Source: an uncultured Flavobacteriales bacterium
GTDB taxonomy: Bacteria; Bacteroidota; Bacteroidia; Flavobacteriales_D; Parvicellaceae
Assembly (NCBI GenBank): GCA_913042175.1
Contig: CAJWIX010000010.1
Location: 1 to 40,693, forward strand
Reading direction: 5' to 3'
DNA: 40,693 nt
The translations under genes and the position numbers were made by a program. Shown piece by piece: positions 13,281 to 39,804 of this stretch. Below the pieces are notes generated by a model. It was not told the DNA's origin and searched no databases. It worked only from the letters and a program-made list of their open reading frames with translations. Position 1 is the first letter of the stretch; every line of letters starts with the position of its first letter.

Positions 13281-13321
13281 AATTGAATTTGAAATTAAAA
13301 TTATCGCTTAATTATCTTGCA

Positions 13322-13329
13322 TATATTTG
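13322..13329 (+). promoter_or_regulatory. Candidate -7 promoter element TATATTTG before tgt
   Basis: TATATTTG matches the Bacteroidota -7 consensus TAnnTTTG and ends 26 bases before the tgt ATG at 13356. It supports that ATG over an upstream in-frame TTG at 13317, which would lie upstream of the transcript. No clear -33 TTG is present at the expected spacing. Confidence 0.5.
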
Positions 13330-13355
13330 CCCTACTCAAGTTTATTCACATATTT

Positions 13356-14486
13356 ATGAACTTTAATCTTCAATTTCAGGACCAATTTTCCAAGGCAAGG
13401 GCCGGAGAGATTGAGACAGATCATGGTAAAATACTTACACCTATCTTTATGCCTGTTGGAACGGCAGGCACAGTTAAAGCAGTATCTCAAAATGATTTGA
13501 CTAATGAGATAAAAGCCCAAATTATACTCGGGAATACTTATCACCTCTATCTAAGGCCAGGCATTGAATTATTAGAAAAAACGGGGGGATTACATTCTTT
13601 TATTTCATGGGATAAACCTATTTTAACTGATTCGGGGGGGTATCAAGTTTATAGTCTATCTGGAAGAAGGAAAATCACAGAAGAGGGAGTTAATTTCAGG
13701 TCACATATTGACGGTTCAAGACATCTTTTTACACCTGAAAGGGCAATAGATATTCAAAAGTCTATTGGGGCTGATATCATAATGGCTTTTGATGAATGCA
13801 CACCATATCCATGTCATTTTAATTATGCTAAAAACTCAATGGAAATGACGCATAGATGGCTTAAAAGATGTGTTGACCACTTCAATTCTTCGCCTTCAAA
13901 ATACGGCTACAGCCAATCTTTGTTTCCTATTGTTCAGGGCAGTACATATTCTGACCTAAGAAAGCAAAGTGCAGAAAAAATTGCAGAATTTGATATGCCA
14001 GGCAATGCAATAGGTGGATTATCTGTAGGTGAACCAGCAGAATTAATGTACAAACATACAGAAGAAGTATGTTCTATTCTACCTGCAGATAAACCTAGGT
14101 ACCTCATGGGAGTGGGTACACCTGTTAATATCTTGGAGTGTATTGCTTTGGGAGTAGATATGTTTGATTGTGTAATGCCTACTAGAAATGCAAGGAACGG
14201 AATGTTATTTACTTCAGAAGGTATTATTAATATTAGGAATAAAAAATGGGAACATGACTTATCCCCAATAGATCCGAATGGAACTGCTTCTGTAGATTCC
14301 AAATACTCTAAAGCATACTTAAGACATTTAATGATTTCAAAAGAATTATTAGGTGCTCAAATAGCAAGCATTCATAACTTGACTTTTTATTTGTGGTTAG
14401 TTGAAGAGGCAAGAACTAAAATTCAAGAGGGAACTTTTCATGAGTGGAAAAATAAAATGGTTGTTAAACTCGTTCAAAGACTTTGA
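13356..14486 (+). CDS. tgt: tRNA-guanine transglycosylase, lacking zinc-site cysteines
   Basis: The 376-residue enzyme exchanges G34 for preQ1 in tRNAs for Asp, Asn, His and Tyr on the way to queuosine. Family motifs are clear: IFMPVGTAGTVKAV, ILGNTYHLYLRPG, LTDSGGYQVYSLSG with the catalytic Asp, IGGLSVGEPAE, and GVDMFDCVMPTRNARNG with the nucleophilic Asp. The zinc site of the family (CxCxxC plus a His 25 residues on) is altered: where E. coli has DCDCYTC before the Tyr-Ser, this protein reads NGTASVD (about bases 14275-14298), while the His in SIHNL is kept. I recall Bacteroides Tgt also lacking these cysteines. I chose ATG 13356 because the upstream extension is a hydrophobic stretch from a TTG codon within the promoter. 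The permease gene follows after five bases. Confidence 0.96.
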   Translation: MNFNLQFQDQFSKARAGEIETDHGKILTPIFMPVGTAGTVKAVSQNDLTNEIKAQIILGNTYHLYLRPGIELLEKTGGLHSFISWDKPILTDSGGYQVYSLSGRRKITEEGVNFRSHIDGSRHLFTPERAIDIQKSIGADIIMAFDECTPYPCHFNYAKNSMEMTHRWLKRCVDHFNSSPSKYGYSQSLFPIVQGSTYSDLRKQSAEKIAEFDMPGNAIGGLSVGEPAELMYKHTEEVCSILPADKPRYLMGVGTPVNILECIALGVDMFDCVMPTRNARNGMLFTSEGIINIRNKKWEHDLSPIDPNGTASVDSKYSKAYLRHLMISKELLGAQIASIHNLTFYLWLVEEARTKIQEGTFHEWKNKMVVKLVQRL

Positions 14487-37910: not shown

Positions 37911-37926
37911 AATCATAAAATTGATT

Positions 37927-39015
37927 ATGAAAGTCAAAGATGTAACAAATTATTTAGAAAGCATAGCCCCATTGCAACTACAAGAAGATTATGATAATTC
38001 TGGATTAATAATTGGAAATGGCGATGATAAGGTTGAAGGAGCTTTGGTTTGTTTAGACGTAACAGAGGAAGTTATTCGTGAAGCTATTTCTTTGGGTTGT
38101 AACTTAATTATAGCCCATCATCCCCTCATTTTTTCAGGAATAAGAAAGATAAATACTAATAACTACCCTTCTTCTTGTGTAGTACTAGCGATTAAAAACA
38201 ACCTTAATATTTATGCCATCCATACTAATTTGGATAATGTTCCAAAAGGAGTTAATGGTAAAATTGCAGATTTACTGCAACTTTCAAATAGAAAAATATT
38301 ACTTCCAAAACAGCACTTGACAAAAATTGCTGTTTATGTTCCAAAAGAACATTTTTCAAAAGTGAGTGATGCGATGTTTGACGCTGGTGCAGGACATATT
38401 GGTAACTATAGCCATTGTAGTTTTTCTAGCTCAGGACAAGGTACATTTATGCCACATGCTGATGCAAATCCACATATTGGACAAAAGAATCAATTAGAAA
38501 AAGTAGATGAGCATAAATTAGAGATGGTAGTTCCAAATCACTTGCTTTTTAAGGTGCTTAACGCCATGACCAAAGCTCATCCATATGAAGAAGTGGCCTA
38601 TGATATTTTTCATTTACTAAATTCATCTAATTATGGTGCTGGTATTATAGGTGAACTTAAAACTCCATTGTCGGAAATGGAATTTCTACAAAAATTAAAA
38701 ACAACATTTAATGCCAATGGAATTAGGTATACTAATTTATTAAAAAAGAAAATTAAAAAAGTTGCAGTGTGTGGAGGATCAGGTAGCTTTTTGCTAAACA
38801 ATGCCATTGCTCAAAATGCAGATATACTAGTTACATCTGACTTTAAATACCACCAATTTTTTGATGCAAATAATCAAATTTTAATTGCTGATATTGGTCA
38901 TTATGAGTCTGAGCAATTTACAATTGACTTAATAGGTGATATATTAATGAAAAAATTTACTAATTTTGCCATCCGTTTGACAACAGTCAACACTAATCCA
39001 ATTAATTACATATAG
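37927..39015 (+). CDS. Nif3-like dinuclear metal centre protein with inserted PII/CutA-like domain
   Basis: The 362-residue protein has the split Nif3 fold: an N-terminal half (EDYDNSGLIIGN, LIIAHHPLIFSGI, AIHTNLDNV) and a C-terminal half (VAVCGGSGSFLL, LVTSDFKYHQF, IADIGHYESEQF). These supply the His, Asp and Glu metal ligands. Between them, about residues 130-235 form the inserted domain found in B. subtilis YqfO-type proteins (TKIAVYVPKEHFSKV, AHPYEEVAYDI), explaining the length compared with about 250 for E. coli YbgI. The biochemical role is unsettled in the literature; GTP cyclohydrolase-like names are not well supported. Start: ATG 37927, preferred to the in-frame TTG at 37921. The coiled-coil gene follows after three bases. 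Confidence 0.92.
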   Translation: MKVKDVTNYLESIAPLQLQEDYDNSGLIIGNGDDKVEGALVCLDVTEEVIREAISLGCNLIIAHHPLIFSGIRKINTNNYPSSCVVLAIKNNLNIYAIHTNLDNVPKGVNGKIADLLQLSNRKILLPKQHLTKIAVYVPKEHFSKVSDAMFDAGAGHIGNYSHCSFSSSGQGTFMPHADANPHIGQKNQLEKVDEHKLEMVVPNHLLFKVLNAMTKAHPYEEVAYDIFHLLNSSNYGAGIIGELKTPLSEMEFLQKLKTTFNANGIRYTNLLKKKIKKVAVCGGSGSFLLNNAIAQNADILVTSDFKYHQFFDANNQILIADIGHYESEQFTIDLIGDILMKKFTNFAIRLTTVNTNPINYI

Positions 39016-39018
39016 AAA

Positions 39019-39804
39019 ATGGCTAGAAAAAAATATTCACCAGAAGAAACATTAAGAGCTTTATACAACCTACAATACATCGATTCAAGAATTGATCGTA
39101 TGAGAGAAGTTAGGGGAGAGTTACCAATGGAGGTTAAAGATCTAGAGGACGAGATGGAAGGATTGAATCGAAGAGTGGAAAAAATTGAAGAAGAAATGGC
39201 TGAGGTTAACCATTTAATACTGGAGAAGAAAAACATCATTGAAGAGTCTAAATCGACTATCAAGAAGTATGAAGAGCAGCAAAAAAATGTGAGAAATAAC
39301 CGTGAATTTGATTCTTTAAATAAAGAAATTGAATACCAAGAGCTTGAAGCACAATTAGCTGAAAAAAGAATTAAAGAAAATTTATTGAAAATTGACAGCA
39401 AAAAGGAAATTTTGCAAGAAGTTAAGGATCAATTTTCTGCTAAAGAAGAAGCTTTAGACGCTAAAAAGAAAGAATTAAAAGAAATTGTAGCTGAGACTGA
39501 AAAAGAGGAGAAAATATTATTAGAAGAATCCGAAAAAGCTTCAAAATCAATAGATGATAGGTTGTTAAGAGCTTACAAAAGAATCAGAGGTGCTTCGAAA
39601 AACGGTTTGGCAGTAGTTCCTGTTGAGCGTGGCGCATCTGGAGGATCTTTTATTAAAATTCCACCACAAATTCAATTAGATATTGCTGCACGCAAGAAAA
39701 TTATAGTAGATGAGCATAGTGGAAGAATTTTGGTTGATGCTGAACTAGCTGAAGAGCAAAACACCAAAATGTCAAGAAAACTAACTAGAGTTTTAAAAGC
39801 ATAA
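39019..39804 (+). CDS. Coiled-coil protein of the C4 zinc-ribbon (CdsZ/DUF164) family, cysteines lost
   Basis: The 261-residue protein is mostly a long charged helical hairpin (about 10-185) followed by a C-terminal region that aligns with the zinc ribbon of this family (GASGGSFIKIPPQIQLDI, then IIVDEHSGRILVDAE). In zinc-binding members this region has two CxxC knuckles around IPPQ and CGRIL. Here the four ligand positions are Ser, Ser, Asp and Ser, so zinc cannot be bound in the usual way, while the surrounding residues remain conserved. The Nif3-like gene lies three bases upstream, an association seen widely in bacteria. The function is unknown; homologues have been proposed as chaperones or nucleic-acid binders. 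The substitutions may be usual in flavobacteria. Confidence 0.85.
   Translation: MARKKYSPEETLRALYNLQYIDSRIDRMREVRGELPMEVKDLEDEMEGLNRRVEKIEEEMAEVNHLILEKKNIIEESKSTIKKYEEQQKNVRNNREFDSLNKEIEYQELEAQLAEKRIKENLLKIDSKKEILQEVKDQFSAKEEALDAKKKELKEIVAETEKEEKILLEESEKASKSIDDRLLRAYKRIRGASKNGLAVVPVERGASGGSFIKIPPQIQLDIAARKKIIVDEHSGRILVDAELAEEQNTKMSRKLTRVLKA

Follow-up and report, generated by a model that had tools for sequence, protein, structure and literature searches.

The closest described relatives of the protein analysed here belong to the DUF164 family, in which most, but not all, members have two zinc-binding CxxC motifs (Pereira et al. 2011, PMC3372290). Two members of this family have been shown to bind RpoN and regulators of secretion ATPases. 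The function of CT398 (CdsZ) of Chlamydia trachomatis has been demonstrated in another phylum (PMC5947703 and PMC6426960, relating Barta et al.), and the coil of CT398 alone binds RpoN (PMC5947703, citing Barta et al.). A homologue of CT398 in Waddlia binds heparin, co-localises with DNA and gives a ChIP-seq signal near many genes, mainly those of translation; it also pulls down RpoD, but a second method did not confirm this interaction (PMC6426960).

In Helicobacter pylori, strains in which the DUF164 protein FlgZ (HP0958) carries C202S or C223S are non-motile and have less RpoN, and the C223S protein also accumulates less (PMC3372290). Serine alone is therefore no free substitute for cysteine. 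However, the same study reports that the motif SXXS-X20-DXXS is usual in flavobacterial DUF164 proteins, and its accessible text leaves open whether these proteins bind zinc or act as FlgZ does. Given the defects of the FlgZ mutants, the flavobacterial change was probably accompanied by compensation. The cysteine-free motif itself has thus been in print since 2011; in its accessible part that paper gives a seed tree rather than a mapping of the motif across genomes.

We analysed a 40,693-nucleotide stretch of DNA from an uncultured Flavobacteriales bacterium, and refer to the whole of this stretch as the window. The DUF164 gene of the window and the parts of its product are as follows.

39019..39804, plus strand: DUF164 (CdsZ/FlgZ-type) gene, 261 amino acids plus stop (39019-39801 coding), with a PF02591 match of 31.4 bits and near-full-length matches to 4ilo and 3na7
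39019..39600, plus strand: N-terminal coiled-coil hairpin, about residues 1-194, from AlphaFold2 (AF2) helices and pLDDT
39622..39740, plus strand: ribbon module without metal ligands, about residues 202-240
39637..39639, plus strand: Ser207, ligand position 1 (Cys in 87 of 170 homologues; Ser in 81 of 83 S-type homologues)
39646..39648, plus strand: Ser210, ligand position 2 (Ser in 80 and Thr in 3 of 83 S-type homologues)
39709..39711, plus strand: Asp231, ligand position 3 (Asp in 82 of 83 S-type homologues)
39718..39720, plus strand: Ser234, ligand position 4 (Ser in 83 of 83 S-type homologues)

The two-CxxC zinc motif of DUF164/COG1579 is absent from the window protein, which has S, S, D, S instead; its ribbon reads V-E-R-G-A-S207-G-G-S210-F...IPPQ...D231-E-H-S234-G-R-I-L-V-D. 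Residues 207-238 nevertheless match PF02591, the C4-type zinc ribbon, above the curated cut-off of 29.1 bits, and nearly the whole protein matches CT398 (4ilo, E 3.7e-16) and HP0958 (3na7, E 2.9e-9). The columns of Ser207, Ser210, Asp231 and Ser234 are the cysteine columns of CT398, of HP0958 and of the 87 homologues (among 170) that have four cysteines, which we call CCCC. It had originally been predicted from the sequence that four cysteines were replaced by Ser, Ser, Asp and Ser within a retained family framework, and the reading frame, PF02591 and the alignment with the structural homologues all bear this out. CT398 and HP0958 are thus whole-length relatives that, unlike the window protein, keep cysteine at the ligand positions, HP0958 in the form CxxC...CxxC.

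A coiled-coil hairpin of about 170 residues at the N-terminus characterises DUF164/COG1579 and is also present. In the AF2 model it consists of helices 8-89 and 94-176, followed by a helix at 180-194, with ten-residue mean pLDDT values of 78-95 over residues 11-190, and the top Foldseek matches are 4ilo, the best, and 3na7. The window protein does not reach an E-value of 0.001 with the Pfam family CT398_CC (PF24481). It scores 79.7 bits with the NCBIfam equivalog Zn_ribbon_CdsZ (NF047363), below the cut-off of 275, and is therefore not filed under that equivalog. Compared with the flavobacterial DUF164 proteins in the accessible text of Pereira et al., it is of the same family with the same four residues and the same spacing of 20, and we found no difference. 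Because S, S, D, S is common to 83 of the 170 homologues, it marks a published sub-type of a homologous family, and the window protein is a member of this sub-type (S-type).

Both other genomes of the genus in which we found a match (L003 and L004) have the identical four residues; a third, 62% complete, has no match. Together with the S-type in 25 of 25 genomes of the window's family, this excludes a sequencing error. A profile search of the window's genome with PF02591 gave a single match, so the available sequence contains no zinc-binding CdsZ paralogue, although at 85% completeness one could be missing. This point bears on the comparison with C-minus ribosomal proteins (e.g., bL31 and bL36), where, as here, a zinc-free form takes the place of one that binds zinc through CxxC. 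The cases described in the accessible text of PMC9976891 are paralogues exchanged with zinc supply, whereas the only copy found in the window's genome lacks the ligands, and the Cys-bearing paralogue that is expected of the C-minus type was not found by the PF02591 search.

To map the two types we used 80 named genome loci, which are the best 80 of 395 matches and therefore biased towards close relatives, and 90 genomes of the window's order; some of these 170 homologues are near-duplicates. The order is represented here by 150 genomes, of which 146 have a match to CdsZ and 145 to Tgt (discussed below); CdsZ was read in 90, Tgt in 90 and both in 88. Across the 170 Bacteroidota homologues the ligand site is all-or-none: 87 are CCCC, 83 are S-type and none is mixed. 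The S-type set consists of 77 SSDS, 3 STDS, 2 ASDS and 1 SSVS. In the window's family (f1), 24 of the 25 genomes read are SSDS and one is SSVS. The other S-type families of the order, with genomes read, are f3 (7), f5 (1), f9 (20), f11 (1) and f12 (5), while f2 (2), f4 (2), f6 (1), f7 (3), f8 (20) and f10 (3) are CCCC; no family has both types among the genomes read. Named loci titled Flavobacteriaceae or Crocinitomicaceae are S-type, and those titled Chitinophagales, Bacteroidales, Sphingobacteriaceae or Saprospiraceae are CCCC, as is one titled uncultured Flavobacteriales (L031). Relatives from the window's own family keeping all four cysteines would have counted against the original prediction; there are none (0 of 25), but six other families of the order keep them.

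Two discrete types could reflect a single replacement. In a tree of the coil (ribbon excluded, 119 rows) there are three type changes, one of them forced, and constraining the S-type to one clade gave a likelihood 24.66 above that of the free tree (p-AU 0.827). A tree of the coil, Tgt and NIF3 (115 rows) has five changes, one forced; here the one-clade constraint is 47.48 lower, with a p-AU of 0.171, and is not rejected. The tree of Tgt and NIF3 alone has seven type changes, at least three of them forced by starred branches, and one origin is thus not secure; the deep branches of this tree are weak, and it breaks up f1. A single origin of the S-type is the simplest reading, and is not proven.

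Our preferred explanation, which we consider probable, is that the window protein is a flavobacterial zinc-free form of DUF164 in which the ribbon is still folded and the family role is kept, and that its loss of ligands is one of several separate losses. The other losses concern, first, a protein encoded in the same window.

13317..14486, plus strand: Tgt gene, with C-x-C-x-x-C changed to G-x-A-x-x-D and the His kept

The usual form of Tgt is C-x-C-x-x-C...H. This form occurs in none of the 116 genomes read, and the original statement that the window's Tgt has lost its structural zinc site is correct as regards the cysteines. At the level of the order (n=90), none of the three cysteines is present in 89 genomes and one is present in the remaining genome; all 90 have Asp at the third position and retain the His. 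Among named Bacteroidota there are 28 matches, two of which (L290 and L291) are too short to read; 22 of the other 26 have none of the three cysteines and 4 have one. We considered a coupled loss in CdsZ and Tgt and ruled it out: both genes were read in 88 genomes of the order, and each of the 31 with CCCC CdsZ lacks the Tgt cysteine motif. The two losses are therefore not one event, and from this distribution the Tgt loss is the older and broader.

A second case is the DnaG primase of the window's genome, which is encoded outside the window (contig C12, L295:1495-3285) and reads S-P-F-S...D-F-S-S, i.e., S, S, D, S for C, H, C, C. Of 88 genomes intended for this comparison, 9 were left out, 3 of the remaining 79 had no match and one (G154) duplicated another (G051), leaving 75. 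C-P-F-H...C-x-x-C is kept in 21 of these and ligands are lost in 54. Among the 54, the third ligand is Asp in 34 and Cys in 20, the fourth is Ser or Thr in all, and the first is Ser in all 53 that are readable; exactly SSDS is found in 12. The motif is kept in the 16 named CCCC-CdsZ genomes read and in f7 (1), f10 (2) and f12 (2), and ligands are lost in every genome read of f1-f6, f8, f9 and f11 and in the 9 named S-type genomes.

Comparing the two proteins over the 75 genomes, both have lost ligands in 39 (one a partial read), both have kept them in 19, DnaG alone has lost them in 15 and CdsZ alone in 2, both of f12. Any association (74 rows: 38, 19, 15 and 2) would rest on one independent pair on starred branches and on 4-5 on all branches, and may reflect shared ancestry. 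Because each protein has lost its ligands without the other, and on different branches, the pattern points to stepwise erosion. DnaG also shows part-way states (e.g., S-T-C-T), whereas CdsZ shows none.

Other normally zinc-bound proteins give a mixed picture. In DnaJ, motifs 1 and 4 of the four CxxCxGxG motifs form one zinc site. The DnaJ of the window's genome (L293) has lost two of the four motifs; only two, which we read as motifs 2 and 3, are present in 44 of 47 sequences, in agreement with the domain spans, and the three exceptions, which have more, are all from f10. The stretches bearing motifs 1 and 4 are replaced, rather than the ligands alone. The only L31 match in the genome (L296) has no CxxC and one cysteine overall. 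Retained are the four cysteines of ClpX, DnaJ motifs 2 and 3 and the C4 site of a protein that we take, from its sequence, to be ComF-like. A scan of a 400-kb sample of the genome with rough motif patterns gave DnaJ and the ComF-like protein as the only zinc proteins of use; it also matched the start of a UvrA that lacked the zinc part. Among the matches listed in the open-access literature we found nothing on zinc-site loss in Tgt, DnaG, DnaJ or Bacteroidetes generally, which does not establish its absence from print.

The original prediction had also suggested that CdsZ and Tgt reflect a shift of the lineage towards zinc independence. This part holds to the extent that the genome has further losses, in four DnaG ligands, two DnaJ motifs and the CxxC of L31. 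However, a coupled shift is not supported, and ClpX keeps its site. The corresponding explanation is that selection for zinc sparing acts on the whole lineage, with flavobacteria of zinc-poor habitats replacing structural zinc sites successively and CdsZ being one step. We regard this as possible but doubtful. It would account for the ligand losses in Tgt, DnaJ, DnaG and CdsZ in one genome, for the S, S, D, S shared by DnaG and CdsZ there, and for the Asp at the third cysteine of Tgt in 90 of 90. However, the losses map to different branches, DnaG and CdsZ have each lost ligands without the other, ClpX, DnaJ motifs 2 and 3 and the ComF-like site are kept, and in DnaJ more than the ligands was replaced. 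The lineage idea is partly supported as a stepwise erosion: this group has lost zinc sites repeatedly and on separate branches, while some sites have been spared. A change from Cys to Asp is found in CdsZ, in 34 of the 54 changed DnaG proteins and at the third position of Tgt, and Ser or Thr nearly always stands at ribbon ligands one and four of both DnaG and CdsZ. This recurring chemistry suggests that a hydrogen-bond network could replace the metal.

Another explanation is that the site still binds a metal or other ligand through Asp231, His233 and Ser (e.g., Mg2+, or a weaker zinc site). The conservation of Asp231 (82 of 83) and of His233 and Ser234 (83 of 83 each) would fit such a site. 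However, His233 is also present in 73 of 87 CCCC homologues and so was not recruited as a new ligand, and Ser is a poor zinc ligand; we therefore consider this explanation unlikely.

It is also important to consider that the ribbon might be dispensable and drifting, with the coiled coil sufficing. The mean column entropy of the ribbon is 0.48 bits in the 83 S-type proteins versus 0.63 in the 87 CCCC proteins, although the narrower phylogenetic range of the S-type set lowers its entropy somewhat; for the coil the values are 1.35 and 1.43 bits. By this measure, losing the cysteines has not relaxed the constraint on the ribbon. Two further positions distinguish the types: Ala223 (78 of 83) and Arg225 (83 of 83) in the S-type are mostly Arg/Lys/Gln and His/Arg/Lys, respectively, in CCCC homologues. 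In AF2 models from 21-row alignments, the S-type ribbon has a pLDDT of about 34-44 and no strand of three or more residues, versus about 70 and three strands for a CCCC ribbon. With Foldseek, the CCCC model matches 3na7, 4ilo, 5y06 and 5y05, all with E < 0.001; the S-type model matches 4ilo and 3na7 at this level and 5y06 at 3.3e-3, and given its low pLDDT in the ribbon its matches presumably rest mainly on the coils. The modelling thus does not demonstrate that the fold is retained. The earlier claim that fold and interface are still selected therefore stands as far as conservation goes, while the fold finds no confirmation in the AF2 model. The low model confidence and the binding of RpoN by the CT398 coil alone would agree with relaxed constraint. 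However, ribbon columns are more conserved than those of the coil, and the four replacement residues are nearly fixed, so that we consider relaxed constraint very unlikely.

The gene directly upstream of cdsZ was also considered.

37921..39015, plus strand: NIF3/DUF34 gene, directly upstream of cdsZ, with HH, H..D and H..E residues present

The name NIF3 is our tentative assignment, based in part on the homology seen among the loci, and we take HH, H..D and H..E to be metal residues. In 155 of 173 loci, with both CdsZ types, the gene is the immediate upstream neighbour of cdsZ, and a NIF3 gene lies upstream in H. pylori as it does in the window. NIF3/DUF34 has been reported as a neighbour of the DUF164 family (PMC3372290, PMC8469502). 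In 14 loci (L014-L025, L027 and L028), many of them titled Flavobacteriaceae and all with S-type CdsZ, the first His of the HH pair is Phe. Family f12 (L102, L103, L108, L113 and L160) has no NIF3 frame within the approximately 1.5-kb flanks of cdsZ, unlike the other 168 of 173 loci, and it is also the family that keeps the DnaG zinc ligands (2 read) and has lost those of CdsZ. That NIF3/DUF34 inserted zinc into CdsZ and became jobless once CdsZ lost it is highly improbable: DUF34 is proposed to be a metal chaperone or insertase (PMC8469502) and the change to Phe is confined to S-type loci, but the gene adjoins both types of cdsZ, and NIF3 in the S-type set retains the remaining tested residues wherever they are readable, bar two X, with all six present in the window.

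Returning to the zinc-free form with a folded ribbon, we propose that, in a lineage ancestral to several flavobacterial families, Ser, Ser, Asp and Ser took the place of the four cysteines as a set, most simply once, and that this set would have been fixed ever since. We infer that the protein carries no zinc in the cell. Most likely the ribbon has kept its fold and displays the same conserved surface, the metal probably being replaced by a Ser/Asp hydrogen-bond network. Hairpin and ribbon most likely dock on a sigma factor or RNA polymerase and on nucleic acid, as in the family role, and our best guess for the function is an adaptor for sigma factor/RNA polymerase and nucleic acid, with a ribbon that has turned metal-free. 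The loss would be one of several separate losses (Tgt, DnaJ motifs 1 and 4, DnaG and CdsZ), with no coordinated switch. An RpoN domain is present in 147 of the 150 genomes of the order; being near-universal, it does not separate the CdsZ types, and we rejected it as a correlate.

A possible link to nucleic acid is also seen in the sister family f9. CdsZ frames longer than 500 amino acids occur in 12 of 46 genomes examined, all from f9 (genera g28, g37, g39, g41 and g50). The seven that were read (L186, L190, L192, L193, L199, L201 and L202) are S-type, with about 290-390 Lys/Ala/Pro-rich residues in frame before the hairpin, a stretch that we liken to histone H1 tails. Three tailed proteins match PF02591 and PF24481 with E < 0.001, but only one of the six scores exceeds its curated cut-off. 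A fusion of NIF3 and CdsZ, considered for these long frames, was ruled out on the reading frames. Among the matches listed in the open-access literature we found nothing on a tailed ribbon protein. The tail would fit a role on nucleic acid; a tail-less form might also be made from an internal start.

Since the CdsZ motif itself is published, the interest lies mainly in the parallel with DnaG and in the histone-like tail. A more speculative reading, possible but doubtful, is that flavobacteria have replaced structural zinc in several unrelated housekeeping proteins (DnaG, CdsZ and, in part, Tgt) stepwise and by a recurring solution, with Asp as the third ligand and Ser or Thr around it. If this is true, essential proteins of the group would offer a natural series of zinc sites in zinc-free form, and one family would, with its histone-like tail, also have moved CdsZ towards DNA. 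A zinc-free CdsZ bears, in addition, on the proposal that NIF3/DUF34 handles metal for its partners. If DnaG, Tgt, DnaJ and CdsZ did lose zinc separately, with two of them reaching the same four residues, then nature would have fixed replacements for a structural zinc ribbon.
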